Shown in pieces: positions 54,308 through 63,797 of a stretch of 64,000 nucleotides of DNA (its first letter is position 1; each line of letters begins with the position of its first letter). The notes beneath the pieces were generated by a model. It did no database searches, was not told where the DNA came from, and saw only the letters and a program-made list of their open reading frames with translations. Position numbers and translations under genes: made by a program. The stretch is from Thermoactinomyces vulgaris (lineage in GTDB: Bacteria; Bacillota; Bacilli; Thermoactinomycetales; Thermoactinomycetaceae), in NCBI RefSeq assembly GCF_003688725.1, contig NZ_REFP01000014.1, positions 1 to 64,000 on the forward strand, given 5' to 3'.

Positions 54308-54333
54308 ATGATGAAACCCACACCAAACCCCCG

Positions 54334-54526
54334 CAAGATAGCGCACCACGTTTGTCTGGGCAAAGAACAAACGTGACAGTGCTGACCCTGTTTGGAATCA
54401 GCCCCAGCTTGTCCGCCTGGAGCGGGCGAACAAACTTCGGCGACTTTTCCTTTCCCTTGCAGTCATCAAATGAAACTCCAAATTCTCGTGCAAAGTACTG
54501 ATAAAAGCCGCAACCTCTACCTCACC
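54334..54526 (-). ncRNA. Lysine riboswitch (L box)
   Basis: Read on the minus strand the leader has the conserved L-box blocks in order: GGTGAGGTAGAGGTTGCGG at the 5' side, AAGTCGCCGAAG, GGGGCTGATT...CACTGTCACG, and GTGCGCTATCTTGC at the 3' side. P1 pairs AGGTAG with CTATCT. These agree with the aptamer known from B. subtilis lysC. It sits between a sigma-A promoter and a terminator, so it works by transcription control. Confidence 0.92.
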
Positions 54527-54570
54527 GAGAGAAATCGATGAGGGTGAATATGCACTTGTTAGTTATTATT

Positions 54571-56282: not shown

Positions 56283-57368
56283 TTAATTTTTATATGGAAA
56301 CCAAAGAGTGATCCGGGTGCCTTCATTCCGCTTGCTTTCCACTTGGATTATGCCCCGCATTCTCTCGATAAATTGCTTGGCAATCACCATGCCGAGCCCG
56401 GAACCCAGCGCGGTCCGGTCGGTGGGGGTTCCCCGGTAATAACGGTCAAACAAATGTTGAATGGTTTTTTGGTCCATTCCCGTGCCATTGTCCTGAATTA
56501 CAATCAAAAGCCTGTCTTCTTTCAATTCGGTTGTCACCTGAATGGTTGTTTCCGGGGGATTGTGGTGGATGGCATTCATGATGAGGTTTTCCAGTGCCCG
56601 TTTGAGCAAATGTTCGTCAAACGTCCACCGGATCTCCCCGGGCGGAGATTTTAATTGAATTTCATACCGGTCTGCCAGGGGATGTTTTTTAAGATCGCCC
56701 AAAACCCGTTTTAAAAAGGAAATCAAGTCCAATACGCGCTCATTCAAGGGGATTTGACTTTCTTCCAATTGATAAACGATGCTCAAGTCTTGGATCAACT
56801 GCTCAATATGGATCGATTTTTCCTCAATGATCCGGCTGAACTCTTTCACTTCTGCTTCTTCCCAAGCATGATCCGAGCGGAGCATCGCTGCATACCCTTT
56901 GATGTAAGATAAAGGGGTTTTCAAATCGTGGGTGATGCCGGAGGCCCAGCTTCTCCTCGATTCTTCAAGTGCTTTGCGCTCTTGTTCGACGGAATGAAGC
57001 CGGGCGGTCAAATTGTCCAGTTTCGATTCCAATTCCAAAAACACCCCGAACTTCCGGGCAGCCAGGTCTGGAAAATCCGGCTTTTGATAATTCCCTTCCG
57101 AAAGGTTCTCAATCCATTGAATCAGAAAAAAGAGCGGCTTGCTGATTTTCCGCCCCAAAAAGATCCCGATCATCATAAATATCACGATAAAGGAACTTAA
57201 ATACAAACCGATCAACAGAGGGACACGGGTTCCCACCGGGATCTGAAGAAGTTTGTGAATCCCCATGACAACAACCGGAACCACCGTCAGCCCCGAAAGC
57301 AAAAGAACGCCTCCGATGGCGAGCAAAACCGCCACAAACTGGAGGGATATTTTGTGTTTGAGATCCAT
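56283..57368 (-). CDS. Sensor histidine kinase
   Basis: A 361-residue kinase with two membrane helices close together (about 8-30 and 45-67), so only a short loop faces outside; such intramembrane-sensing kinases often work with drug exporters. HAMP region, then H-box SGITHDLKTPLSYIKGYAAML (about residue 143), N-box LENLIMNAIHHNP, DNGTGMD and GSGLGMVIAKQF. Start overlaps the regulator stop; GTG (57371) and ATG (57368) are both possible, with AAGGAGAG upstream. Confidence 0.87.
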   Translation of the reverse strand: MDLKHKISLQFVAVLLAIGGVLLLSGLTVVPVVVMGIHKLLQIPVGTRVPLLIGLYLSSFIVIFMMIGIFLGRKISKPLFFLIQWIENLSEGNYQKPDFPDLAARKFGVFLELESKLDNLTARLHSVEQERKALEESRRSWASGITHDLKTPLSYIKGYAAMLRSDHAWEEAEVKEFSRIIEEKSIHIEQLIQDLSIVYQLEESQIPLNERVLDLISFLKRVLGDLKKHPLADRYEIQLKSPPGEIRWTFDEHLLKRALENLIMNAIHHNPPETTIQVTTELKEDRLLIVIQDNGTGMDQKTIQHLFDRYYRGTPTDRTALGSGLGMVIAKQFIERMRGIIQVESKRNEGTRITLWFPYKN

Positions 57369-58075
57369 CACCGTCTCTCCTTGTCCGAAACTGCGAGCAT
57401 ATATCCCAATCCCCTGATGTTTTTTAAATACTCAGGGTGTTTCGGGTCTTTTTCAATTTTTTGCCGCAACCGCCTGATATGCACCATGACGGTGTTTTCC
57501 TTTCCCACCGTCGGGTAATCCCCCCATACGTGCTGATAAAGGCTGTCCACACTGAACACTTGATTGGGATGCTCACACAAGAATTTCAGCAACTCAAATT
57601 CCTTTGCCGGGCATTTCACTTCTTTCCCGTCCACCACCAATTTCGCCTGTTCCAAGTACAATACAAAATGACCGGTACGAAATTCGCGAAGCCGGGAATT
57701 CAAGCGCCTTTGCCGGTGCAAAATCGCTTTGATCCGGGCAACCACCTCCAACGGATTAAACGGTTTCGTGATATAATCGTCCCCTCCCATGGAAAAACCG
57801 GTCAACTTATCCATATCCGCCGTGCGAGCCGTCAAAAAAAGGATGGGGACGTCGGTCATTTCCCTGATTTGCTGACACAGCCGGAAGCCGTCTGTATCCG
57901 GCAGCATCACATCCAGCAAAATCAAATCCACCGGGTGTTTCCTGATTTTCTCCAACGCTTCTTCGCCGGAGGTGGCCTCAAGGATCCCTTCGAATCCTTC
58001 TTTTTCGAGCAGCCGTTTCATCATTTGGATGATGCCGATCTCATCATCCACCATCAACAGCGTTTCCCTCATCAT
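57368..58075 (-). CDS. OmpR/PhoB-family response regulator
   Basis: A 235-residue regulator with acidic pair in LLMVDDE, phospho-acceptor Asp in DLILLDVMLPDTDG (about residue 53), Lys in GDDYITKPFNP, and a winged-helix domain (about 130-230). ATG at 58075 with AAGGGGG upstream. Partner of the downstream kinase. It is 80 bases after the MFS gene; a hairpin lies between. Confidence 0.88.
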   Translation of the reverse strand: MMRETLLMVDDEIGIIQMMKRLLEKEGFEGILEATSGEEALEKIRKHPVDLILLDVMLPDTDGFRLCQQIREMTDVPILFLTARTADMDKLTGFSMGGDDYITKPFNPLEVVARIKAILHRQRRLNSRLREFRTGHFVLYLEQAKLVVDGKEVKCPAKEFELLKFLCEHPNQVFSVDSLYQHVWGDYPTVGKENTVMVHIRRLRQKIEKDPKHPEYLKNIRGLGYMLAVSDKERR

Positions 58076-58105
58076 TTTTCCCCCTTCTTCTTCATTCATG
58101 AGAGC

Positions 58106-58140
58106 AACCCCCTGAAGCCGCGTTCCCCTTCAAGGGGGTT
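58106..58140. repeat. Inverted repeat between MFS and response-regulator genes
   Basis: AACCCCCTGAAG and CTTCAAGGGGGTT pair almost fully around a ten-base loop. No T run follows, so it is more likely an RNA-stability or processing element than a terminator. Confidence 0.55.
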
Positions 58141-58155
58141 GGATCCAAGATGAAA

Positions 58156-59388
58156 TCAAGCTGGTTTTCCTGCTTTCAACAGCACTTTGTTCCTTCCCAA
58201 AAACATGGCAAGCATGCACATCAACAAACCCGTGCCGGCCAAAATCCATTCAATTTCGATCCAATCGGCAACCGGCCCGAATACAAGCATCCCCACCGGC
58301 ATCATGGAAGTGGAGATCATGCTGAATACCCCAAATACCCTTCCTGTATAATTTTCTTCAATCTTTTCTTGCAACAAGACCGTCGTCGGTGTATTGAAAA
58401 AGGGCATGGCCACCCCGAATAAGGCCATGACCAACAAGTAAATCCAAAAGTCGGGAACCAATCCCAGCGCCAATGTGCAAACCCCCATGATAAAGCCGGA
58501 GAGAGCCATCGTATGGACTTTATTGCCAAAGCCTCCCCACAAGGCGATCAACCCTCCCCCTGCCATCATCCCGACGGAAAAGGTGATTTCAATGGCCGTC
58601 AACCGCCACACATCATCCCCAAAGCTCCGGGTCACCTGCAAAGGGGTTAAAAACGAAGCCGGTGCAATCAATACAAAAAAAACAGCGAAGAACAAAAAGA
58701 AGCTCTTTAAAAAAGCATGTTTTTTAATATACGCGATGCCTTCGGTGACATCACTGTAATAAGTGGTTTTCTGTTTTTCGGACGCCTTTTCGTGAACCGG
58801 AATGTGAACCCATGCCATCATGATGAAAACAGCAACGGCGGCCGTGAGAACATCCACAAAGAAAACCGCTTCAATGGAGGCCATGGTGATGAGTGCCGCA
58901 CTCACCATGGGGGAAACCAACATAATCAATGATTGAAGGCTTCCGTTGATTCCATTCACTTTCGTCAGTTGATCCTTCGGAACCATTTGCGGCAAAACCG
59001 CGCCAATGGTGGGAGTTTGGAATCCGGTCCCAATTGCGCGGACAGCCGAGATGGCAAAAAGCAGCCATATCGCATCGTATCCCGCAAGAAAAAGAATGGC
59101 GAGGACCAACGTGGCCATGGCAATCATTGCATCCGACCCGATGATCAGCATTTTGCGGTTGAAACGGTCTGCCCACACCCCGGCAACCGGCGAGAGAAGA
59201 AAAGTGGGGACAAAACCGCAAAGAATATAGATGGTCATCATCACACCGGATCGGGTATCCAAGGTGATATACCACATAATGGCATATTGCACGAGCGACG
59301 AGCCCAACAGGGAAATCGTCTGGCTGGTTAAAAAAAGGAAAATCTCCCGTTTCCAATGTTCTTTCCTCTCTTCATGGATGAAATTCAT
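58156..59388 (-). CDS. MFS multidrug/macrolide-type efflux transporter
   Basis: A 410-residue transporter with twelve helices, of the MFS_3 group that includes macrolide exporters of the Mef type. Visible: SLLGSSLVQYAIMWYITLDTRSG in helix 1, the motif-A relative GVWADRFNRKMLII and AIGTGFQTPTIGAVLPQMVPKDQLTKVNG. It starts 34 bases after the ABC-F gene, so both are in one unit. Drug specificity unknown. Confidence 0.83.
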   Translation of the reverse strand: MNFIHEERKEHWKREIFLFLTSQTISLLGSSLVQYAIMWYITLDTRSGVMMTIYILCGFVPTFLLSPVAGVWADRFNRKMLIIGSDAMIAMATLVLAILFLAGYDAIWLLFAISAVRAIGTGFQTPTIGAVLPQMVPKDQLTKVNGINGSLQSLIMLVSPMVSAALITMASIEAVFFVDVLTAAVAVFIMMAWVHIPVHEKASEKQKTTYYSDVTEGIAYIKKHAFLKSFFLFFAVFFVLIAPASFLTPLQVTRSFGDDVWRLTAIEITFSVGMMAGGGLIALWGGFGNKVHTMALSGFIMGVCTLALGLVPDFWIYLLVMALFGVAMPFFNTPTTVLLQEKIEENYTGRVFGVFSMISTSMMPVGMLVFGPVADWIEIEWILAGTGLLMCMLAMFLGRNKVLLKAGKPA

Positions 59389-59422: not shown

Positions 59423-60985
59423 TTAATCTGTTTCCAATTTCTTTTTTTCTGCCAACAGCCTTTGAAATTCCTTTTCCAGCTCTTCAGATGGCTCCACGCT
59501 CAACCGGCTGAGCACCTCGGATATTTTGGTCTCAATCAACAGCCGCCGGTCCTCCCCGGCATCCTTTTCTTTTTGCCGCCCAGGCTGCCGTTTCTCTTCA
59601 TCAAGACGGTCTAAAAAACGAATTTCCCGGTTTTTGATCTCCAGGATCCGGGTTGCCAGCTTTTGCACAAAACGCCGGTCGTGAGTGACAAAGATGACCG
59701 TGCCTTCGTACTCTTGAAGAAGGGATTCCAAAGCTTCCACCGCTTCAATATCCAGGAAGTTCGTCGGTTCGTCCAAAACGAGGGTGTTAATGTCACTGAC
59801 AAATACTTTGGCCAATGCCACTTTGACCCGTTCCCCGCCACTTAACACCTCCACTTTTTTATAAACATCGTCCCTCCGGAAATGCAACCGGGCCAGGACA
59901 GTGCGTATCAACGTTTCATCCTGCTTGGAGGTGGAACGGACATTTTCCAAAATCGATTCTTTCAGATCAAGAATATTGAGATTCTGGCTGAAATAACCGA
60001 TTTTCACAGACGGCGAAACTGTGATTCCCTCATCCTGGCGGATGATCTTTCGGATCAGCGTGGTTTTTCCGGCACCATTCGGTCCGGTGACGGCCAGTTT
60101 CTCCCCTCCGCGCACATCAAAACGAGCCGGCTTCCACAAAAGCTTGTTTCCCGCCGTTCCGGAAACATCTTGCACCCGGATCACCACTCTCCCCTTCATA
60201 GCTTCCTGGTGGGGCAAACTCAACTTGACCGGCTTGATTTCTCTCGGCTTTTCCACCTTCTCCAATTTTTCCAGACGGGTTTCCATGGCTTTTTTGGCTT
60301 TCTCCAGTTTCTTTTGTTTTTTGGCAAAGTAGGGTTTGGCCATCTTCGCTTCGGACCGGTTTGTTTTTTTCGGTGTTTTGGTCGCTCTCTGTGCTTTTTG
60401 TTCTTTCATTCGCAGCGCTTCTTCCAACTGCCTTTTCTTTTTTGCATATTTTTCGTATGCCTGGATCTGTTGTTCTCTTTCCAACTCCTTTTGGCGGACG
60501 TAATCCGAATAACTCCCTTTATAGGTTTTGATCTTGCCTTCATCGATCTCCCAAATTGTTGTACAAAGAGTATCCAGGAACACCCTGTCATGGGAAACGA
60601 CCACAAAAGCTCCCGGCCAGTTTTTCAGCTTCTTTTCCAACCATTCGATATGCCCGGTGTCCAAATGTGTGGTCGGCTCATCCAAAAACAAAATCTCCGG
60701 CTCCTTCCCCAAGGCTTGCAAAAGATATTCCCGGGCCAACTCACCGCCGCTTTTGGTTGAATCCTGCCGTTTGATCTGCGGCAAAAATTCAACCGTGGCA
60801 CGGGTAATCACTTGGCCTTGATCGGGAACCGCCCGACCGGTCAACGTTTTGATCAACGTGGTTTTTCCACAGCCATTTTTGCCGACCAAACCGATCCGGT
60901 CCCGGTGATCAATGAATAACCTTTTCACGTCAAACAACAAACGGTCTTTGACATACAGCTTCAAATCACGCGCTTCCAGCAACAT
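59423..60985 (-). CDS. ABC-F ribosomal protection protein (Vga/VmlR/Msr-like)
   Basis: A 520-residue soluble ABC-F protein. Cassette 1: GKNGCGKTTL (about residue 35); its signature is SGGELAREYLLQAL, followed by ILFLDEPTTHLDTGHIEWLEKKL, very like Vga(A) and VmlR. The linker (about 190-270) is Lys/Glu-rich and helical, the part that reaches the ribosomal peptidyl-transferase centre. Cassette 2: [34 protein letters not shown]. Expected to dislodge lincosamides, streptogramin A or pleuromutilins. ATG at 60985 with GGAG nine bases upstream. The 300-base leader contains an attenuator. Confidence 0.85.
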   Translation of the reverse strand: MLLEARDLKLYVKDRLLFDVKRLFIDHRDRIGLVGKNGCGKTTLIKTLTGRAVPDQGQVITRATVEFLPQIKRQDSTKSGGELAREYLLQALGKEPEILFLDEPTTHLDTGHIEWLEKKLKNWPGAFVVVSHDRVFLDTLCTTIWEIDEGKIKTYKGSYSDYVRQKELEREQQIQAYEKYAKKKRQLEEALRMKEQKAQRATKTPKKTNRSEAKMAKPYFAKKQKKLEKAKKAMETRLEKLEKVEKPREIKPVKLSLPHQEAMKGRVVIRVQDVSGTAGNKLLWKPARFDVRGGEKLAVTGPNGAGKTTLIRKIIRQDEGITVSPSVKIGYFSQNLNILDLKESILENVRSTSKQDETLIRTVLARLHFRRDDVYKKVEVLSGGERVKVALAKVFVSDINTLVLDEPTNFLDIEAVEALESLLQEYEGTVIFVTHDRRFVQKLATRILEIKNREIRFLDRLDEEKRQPGRQKEKDAGEDRRLLIETKISEVLSRLSVEPSEELEKEFQRLLAEKKKLETD

Positions 60986-61022
60986 CCGCATCATCTCCGT
61001 ACCGTTATGTTTTTGGGAGACG

Positions 61023-61056
61023 AAAAAAGCCTCCCATCTTTTTAAGAATAGGAGGC
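61023..61056 (-). terminator. Attenuator terminator in the ABC-F leader
   Basis: Minus strand GCCTCC and GGAGGC form a stem with a 16-base loop, followed by TTTTTT, 38 bases before the ABC-F start. Its left arm and loop (61040-61053) are complementary to 61143-61156. Confidence 0.85.
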
Positions 61057-61142
61057 ATAAAAAAGGCACGGGTGCACAGACCGTCATCAGACAAAAGATC
61101 CATACCACCGGATTCACTTTTTATAAAAATGGGTGATGCCAA

Positions 61143-61156
61143 TCCTATTCTTAAAA
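61143..61156 (-). promoter_or_regulatory. Antiterminator arm in the ABC-F leader
   Basis: TTTTAAGAATAGGA on the minus strand is a perfect 14-base complement of TCCTATTCTTAAAA at 61040-61053, which covers the left arm of the terminator. Pairing of the two would prevent termination. Confidence 0.75.
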
Positions 61157-61177
61157 GACACATTGAAGGCAGCACAA
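61151..61177 (-). CDS. Candidate upstream ORF of the attenuator (8 residues)
   Basis: TTG start at 61177 with AAGGAG (61187-61192) nine bases upstream; encodes MCCLQCVF and stops at TAA inside the antiterminator arm. A ribosome ending here would cover that arm and let the terminator form; a drug-stalled ribosome at the start would leave it free. Short upstream ORFs like this are known for vmlR and other antibiotic-induced ABC-F genes. Confidence 0.5.
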   Translation of the reverse strand: MCCLQCVF

Positions 61178-61290
61178 AGAAGCAGACTCCTTCTCTGCCA
61201 AAAAAAATCCTTCAATCCATCTGCTTTCAAAAATAGGATTAGCACTTCATCGTCCCGATGTTCACCCTTCCGTACATAATATTTATCAGT

Positions 61291-61320
61291 ATCATAAACC
61301 AGAAAGAAAAGATTTGTCAA
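61291..61320 (-). promoter_or_regulatory. Promoter of the ABC-F/MFS/two-component unit
   Basis: Minus strand TTGACA (61315-61320), 18 bp, TATGAT (61291-61296). Transcription would begin near 61284, leaving a leader of about 300 bases. Confidence 0.75.
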
Positions 61321-63462: not shown

Positions 63463-63603
63463 ATGTGAATACCCCCTGAAATTTGCAGAAACAATGACGA
63501 ACCACGGGTATCCAAAGTCTGTCTGTCTTTGACCCGTTCATCATCATTTCCATGCTTTCTCTTTTTTCTATTTTTTGTATCCAACCGACCTCTCTTAGCA
63601 TCA

Positions 63604-63755
63604 TATCGCAACTTTTGTACAACGGGTCACCCCGCTGTTTTGTGTCGCGATTCCTCGGCTTTGATGCGAAGCCGGGAGGTATCCGCCGATCACTCGATAC
63701 TCCTCCTCCTCGTCAACTGCAGATCCACGTCTCCTCTGCAGTCCAGGCGCTTTAC
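63604..63755 (-). ncRNA. glmS ribozyme / riboswitch
   Basis: The leader on the minus strand carries the conserved core: AAAGCGCC at the cleavage site, GTTGACGAGGAGGAGGAG, TATCGA, ATCGGCGGAT, CCTCCCGGCT, then AGCCG, and the P3/P4 part (GGAATCGCGAC...GCGGGGTGACCCG...GTTGCGAT). This matches the B. subtilis glmS ribozyme element by element. It cuts its own mRNA when glucosamine-6-phosphate binds, lowering glmS expression. Confidence 0.94.
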
Positions 63756-63797
63756 GGCAAACTTTTGATGCATCCGTGAGATTCCCCCTGCTTCCAT
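63690..63797 (-). CDS. Candidate 35-residue upstream ORF entering the glmS ribozyme
   Basis: ATG at 63797 with AAGGAGGTG, close to the full anti-16S complement, six bases upstream. It encodes a basic 35-residue peptide (MEAGGISRMHQKF...) and crosses the ribozyme cleavage site before stopping at 63690-63692. A second ATG at 63801 opens a longer frame through the whole ribozyme but is too close to the site. Confidence 0.4.
   Translation of the reverse strand: MEAGGISRMHQKFAVKRLDCRGDVDLQLTRRRSIE

Follow-up and report, generated by a model that had tools for sequence, protein, structure and literature searches.

Vga proteins act against pleuromutilins, lincosamides and streptogramin A. An attenuator has been described for vga(A) of Staphylococcus (Vimberg et al. 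2020, as cited in PMC12421871), and for vmlR of Bacillus subtilis, which has a MIN upstream open reading frame (uORF), a mechanism involving an anti-antiterminator, an antiterminator and a terminator has been shown (PMC9226507). The leaders of the related genes for VmlR2 and CplR carry uORFs of the types MK[L/Q] and MR[I/M] (PMC10201436).

In the 64,000-nucleotide stretch of Thermoactinomyces vulgaris DNA analysed here (the window), a leader of this kind precedes an ABC-F gene on the minus strand. We assign a probability of about 0.93 to the reading that it belongs to the ribosome-mediated transcription attenuators of the vga(A)/vmlR class, with the three-codon uORF MKC as its putative sensor, a judgement made from the sequence and supported by the anatomy of the leader, its conservation, covariation in each of the two competing helices, the switch seen in computed folds and the identity of the gene. 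The vga(A)/vmlR mechanism has already been published, and the copy in the window is a further, chromosomal example. The leader comprises the following features, in the order of transcription:

61291-61320, minus strand: sigma-A-type promoter TTGACA-N18-TATGAT, with 11 of 12 consensus matches the top site of the scan
61262-61271, minus strand: ribosome-binding sequence GGAAGGGTGA of the leader uORF, AAGGGTG being near-invariant among relatives
61239-61250, minus strand: conserved three-codon uORF ATG AAG TGC TAA (MKC and stop), with homologous uORFs in relatives and aligned with AUGAUUAACUAA of RF02452
61232-61242, minus strand: arm A (CTAATCCTATT), the 5′ arm of the anti-antiterminator, which overlaps the MKC stop codon and covaries with its partner
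61157-61218, minus strand: apical stem and loop (GGATTGAAGG / CCTTCAATGTGTC) at the top of the anti-antiterminator hairpin in the minimum-energy fold
61151-61177, minus strand: open reading frame (ORF) MCCLQCVF, TTG...TAA, with GGAG upstream, rejected as the regulatory uORF
61139-61156, minus strand: arm B, which pairs either with A, as the 3′ arm of the anti-antiterminator, or with C, as the 5′ arm of the antiterminator
61040-61053, minus strand: arm C, which serves the antiterminator as its 3′ arm and the terminator as its 5′ arm, and covaries with B
61023-61056, minus strand: intrinsic terminator hairpin (stem 61056-61029, U-tract to 61023), found by sequence scan and fold, standing before the resistance gene
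61015-61021, minus strand: arm E (GTCTCCC), which could pair with the ABC-F Shine-Dalgarno (SD) sequence or with the freed 3′ arm of the terminator
60993-60998, minus strand: ABC-F SD sequence GGAGAT, its position kept in relatives

The original prediction had also placed the promoter here; 41 of 44 relatives have a comparably placed one with at least 9 of 12 matches, compared with 11 of 45 control windows. Two further elements of that prediction are present as described, namely a 14-nucleotide antiterminator arm, TTTTAAGAATAGGA (61156-61143), perfectly complementary to 61053-61040, and a terminator containing this complement; the terminator stem and the antiterminator both use arm C. Arm A pairs with 61149-61139 in arm B, and in the minimum-energy fold the helix running from arm A onwards with the antiterminator arm reaches ~20 bp. 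The anti-antiterminator, antiterminator and terminator are mutually exclusive structures with common arms. The folding energy of the whole leader is –97 kcal/mol, compared to –65 ± 4.4 kcal/mol for shuffled sequences (z = –7.3, with 0 of 200 shuffles reaching it), and many relatives carry a motif similar to the apical GAAGG...CCTTCA.

The leader is followed, on the same strand, by these genes and one further hairpin:

59423-60985, minus strand: Vga-family ABC-F ribosome-protection protein of 520 amino acids (NF000170)
58156-59388, minus strand: MFS exporter (2A0121/Mef-like, under the family cut-offs including that of Mef), 34 nt past the ABC-F gene
58106-58140, minus strand: stable hairpin separating the MFS gene from the response-regulator gene, lacking a U-tract and with a z of only –1.5
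57368-58099, minus strand: OmpR/PhoB-type response regulator, absent at the corresponding place in the same-genus genome G018
56283-57371, minus strand: sensor histidine kinase, identified by sequence analysis, with a 4-nt overlap with the regulator gene

The ABC-F protein scores 769.4 bits against the NCBIfam model of the Vga family of ABC-F proteins (ARE1; NF000170), above the cut-off of 725, and its start is set at 60985, where relatives begin M-L-L-E-A, with an SD sequence, GGAG, 9 nt ahead of this codon. Among solved structures, VgaA-LC is the nearest (7nhl; 672 bits), with VmlR (PDB 6ha8) at 229 bits. Tyr223, Phe224 and Lys227 of VgaA-LC, which follow the ARD loop and are required for resistance (PMC8196190), are conserved in the window protein as Y219, F220 and K223. 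The window protein is ~60% identical to Vga(A) and to Vga(C), both of which are plasmid-borne; membership of the Vga family and this identity to Vga(A) therefore make pleuromutilins, lincosamides and streptogramin A the likely inducers, and the same three classes would be the presumed substrates.

The comparison extends to the leaders. Those of staphylococcal vga(A)/vga(C) plasmids share with the window the same SD sequence, a three-codon uORF (MIN in vga(A)-LC, MKY in vga(C)), the CTAATCCTATT arm, arm B and a terminator arm of CCTATTCTG type, and likewise stand before a Vga protein; the window differs from vga(A) in being chromosomal, in its MKC uORF, in a longer apical hairpin and in the MFS gene that follows. 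The vmlR leader has the same three-structure logic, a three-codon uORF in the 5′ arm of SL-1 and a possible SD-sequestering hairpin (PMC9226507), whereas VmlR itself is more distant and the match of the window to RF02452 falls below the cut-off. VmlR2 and CplR are similar in their three-codon MK/MR-type uORFs before ABC-F genes and in their drug spectrum, but belong to other ABC-F subgroups, and cplR adds translational attenuation (PMC10201436). The mef(E)/mel system also places an attenuator before an operon of MFS exporter and ABC-F genes, but with an 8-codon peptide (MTASMRLR), macrolide specificity and the order MFS then ABC-F (PMC4335068).

The predicted regulatory uORF is MKC, which lies upstream of MCCLQCVF and was, like arm A, absent from the original prediction. 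It is a short, SD-led reading frame with its 3′ end inside the 5′ arm of the anti-antiterminator, and it begins ~11 nt beyond GGAAGGGTGA (from GGGTGA to ATG), a long spacing that is common to relatives. The block of AAGGGTG, spacer, three-codon ORF and TAATCCTAT stop/arm junction stands before nearly all Vga-like ABC-F genes examined; ABC-F genes from this bacterial family that are less closely related (≤46% identity) have a different SD motif and were set apart. The uORF peptides of relatives are mostly MKY, with MKF, MKN, MIY, MLN, MIN, MHN and MDN also represented, and Cys at codon 3 is rare among them. An MRLR-like stall motif, typical of macrolide-type Mef/Msr/ErmK leaders, occurs in neither MKC nor MCCLQCVF. 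With this assignment, the sensor that controls a Vga-type resistance unit on the chromosome would be located to the codon. The MKC start codon lies within a small hairpin, CATCG-GGA-CGATG (61260-61248), which is missing from a same-genus leader and might damp initiation at the uORF.

We infer that RNA polymerase would start near 61284. When no drug is present, ribosomes would clear the three-codon uORF quickly, arm A (61242-61232) and arm B (61149-61139) would pair as the anti-antiterminator, the default state, and the terminator (61056-61029) would form, such that the transcript ends near 61023. A drug that halts ribosomes at or just after initiation, for which pleuromutilins, lincosamides and streptogramin A are candidates, would leave a ribosome parked on MKC with a footprint, reaching about +16 from the A of AUG, that covers arm A. 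Arm B, now freed, would pair with arm C (61053-61040) before the 3′ arm of the terminator is made, and the polymerase would then read into the ABC-F gene and probably into the MFS gene too. The original prediction had thus recognized the kind of element, an antibiotic-responsive attenuator of vmlR type before an ABC-F gene, but not the mechanism proposed here, in which MKC would act as sensor and arm A would hold arm B by default.

Covariation was counted on 44 distinct leader rows, with the arms anchored on a sequence alignment of leaders (rows L104, L105, L107 and L111 by hand). The two arms singled out by the original prediction do covary among these relatives. Specifically, 96.2% of cells in the antiterminator helix B:C are paired and 8 of its 12 pairs show two-sided changes; two-sided cells number 35, where shuffles give 6.6 ± 2.2 and slid controls no more than 13; the window itself contributes one compensated pair, A-U where 37 of the 44 rows show C-G. 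The anti-antiterminator helix A:B is paired in 96.1% of cells, with two-sided changes in 4 of 11 pairs (1.2 in shuffles) and in 8 cells (1.4 in shuffles).

A different emphasis would be mainly translational attenuation, in which arm E (61021-61015) sequesters the SD sequence of the ABC-F gene (helix E:F), and translation is controlled rather than termination. The two segments are complementary in the window and paired in 84% of cells in relatives, and precedents exist in the SD-sequestering SL-4 of vmlR (PMC9226507) and in cplR, which combines both layers (PMC10201436). However, a covariation excess for E:F was sought in the leaders of relatives and none was found, whereas the terminator and antiterminator are strongly supported. 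Control mainly at this level is unlikely, and SD sequestration could be a layer added to transcription attenuation, not a replacement for it.

Switching between the helices was evaluated by constrained folding, with the ribosome modelled as a blocked footprint from –15 to +16 around the AUG. In the absence of a ribosome, a transcript ended after arm C forms 11 A:B pairs and 0 B:C pairs; with the footprint on the MKC AUG, A:B is gone and B:C reaches 12.8 pairs. The same exchange of anti-antiterminator for antiterminator upon blocking the MKC-type uORF is obtained in 44 of 47 leaders, the window included. When the RNA stops exactly at 61023, the terminator is thermodynamically preferred even if MKC is blocked; for the antiterminator to prevail in these calculations, either kinetics must favour it or the RNA must extend to 61000. 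At equilibrium the antiterminator can lose to the terminator once the 3′ arm of the latter exists, so antitermination is expected to depend on the order of synthesis, a dependence that is also part of the published vmlR model (PMC9226507).

The original prediction had instead taken the 8-codon ORF MCCLQCVF (61177-61151) as the sensor, with ribosomes that complete it covering the antiterminator arm and allowing termination, and stalled ribosomes leaving the arm free. The ORF does exist, with GGAG upstream and its stop codon inside arm B, and a length of 8 codons is also known from macrolide leaders, Mef(E)L (MTASMRLR) among them (PMC4335068), but it is not conserved: any SD-preceded ORF ending in arm B occurs in 3 of 47 homologous leaders (window included), none of them similar to MCCLQCVF. 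Nor does it drive the switch. A footprint on its start leaves the 11 A:B pairs in place and the terminator forms, while a footprint at its stop codon abolishes A:B without forming B:C, and the terminator still forms; the MCCLQCVF model therefore predicts termination in both states. It also ignores arm A, the default partner of arm B. On its non-conservation and the lack of a fold switch when its start is blocked, MCCLQCVF was rejected as the sensor, a role that we regard as highly improbable.

The leader was also recognized independently. When 25 further leaders, with the window and the same-genus relative left out, were used to build a covariance model and the whole genome was scanned with it, the window leader scored 94.5 bits (E about 1e-15), and there was no second site apart from the reverse strand of the leader itself. 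Rfam returns no match to the leader at the gathering threshold; below it, the one near match of note, RF02452 (ncr1575), extends over its full length at 61022-61282, with 29 bits against a gathering cut-off of 60 and with the uORFs aligned. RF02452 holds AUGAUUAACUAA (a MIN uORF) and GCUAUUU, strings also given for the vmlR leader, and because these are common to both, RF02452 is probably a vmlR-type attenuator with a MIN uORF, and its label as a Bacillus sRNA looks wrong. This weak match and the Rfam filing might point to an independent small RNA, or to a short transcript made constitutively up to the terminator. That is the least probable reading of all, since in relatives the leader sits directly before resistance genes, the uORF is conserved, the two covarying helices exclude each other, and RF02452 itself carries vmlR-leader strings.

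To gauge the spread of the attenuator, a pattern of SD sequence, uORF and arm was run on 400 genomes of the class, of which 37 matched, compared with 2 for a reversed control pattern. The genes downstream are mostly Vga-like ABC-F genes, with Vat, Vgb-like and MFS genes in other Bacilli. Specifically, a Vat-family streptogramin A acetyltransferase follows the leader at L111 (NF000311, 351 bits) and, by similarity, at L142 and L143, and a Vgb-like streptogramin B lyase at L104 and L145 and, by similarity, at L146. Constrained folding reproduced the blocked-uORF switch in three Vat leaders, two Vgb leaders and one MFS leader. The leader class (AAGGGTG, three-codon uORF, TAATCCTAT arm) is likely to be a portable sensor of peptidyl-transferase-centre drugs, placed on unrelated resistance genes of Bacilli (Vga-like ABC-F, Vat, Vgb and MFS) and, in the window, on an ABC-F and MFS unit, with RF02452 as a member. 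That Vat, Vgb and MFS genes have this leader too suggests that environmental Bacilli hold a shared pool of inducible resistance cassettes, and that one sequence signature might serve to find genes induced by such drugs.

Further loci among those where the module precedes Vgb-like, Vat or MFS genes are L124-L127 and L147. The automatic terminator picker selected a wrong hairpin in L104, L124 and L127; in L106, L125 and L130 it yielded no terminator or arm pairing that could be used. The module at L130 precedes a short-chain dehydrogenase gene, an unexpected target; that at L106 precedes a gene for a DinB-like protein, has a terminator but no predicted A:B helix, and may be a decayed copy. Within the family, the pattern search found no leaders before those MFS homologues that are located away from ABC-F genes.

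In the window, the MFS gene is probably co-transcribed and co-regulated with the ABC-F gene, and the adjacency of the two is kept in G018 at 72% identity. The original prediction had extended the cluster to the two-component genes and described the arrangement as new. Neither proposal fares well: the two-component genes are not beside the pair in G018, a stable hairpin follows the MFS gene, and operons of MFS and ABC-F genes behind attenuators are known (mef/mel, PMC4335068). On its lack of conservation in G018, the two-component system was discarded as part of the regulated unit, of which it is at most a putative member. In G018, the place of these genes after the ABC-F and MFS pair is taken by an Erm 23S rRNA methyltransferase gene (L123:7043-7798, minus strand; NF000499, 227 bits, cut-off 212). 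Elsewhere, the window contains two ordinary riboswitches, a glmS ribozyme (63595-63762) before glmS and a lysine riboswitch (54331-54527) before an amino acid permease gene.
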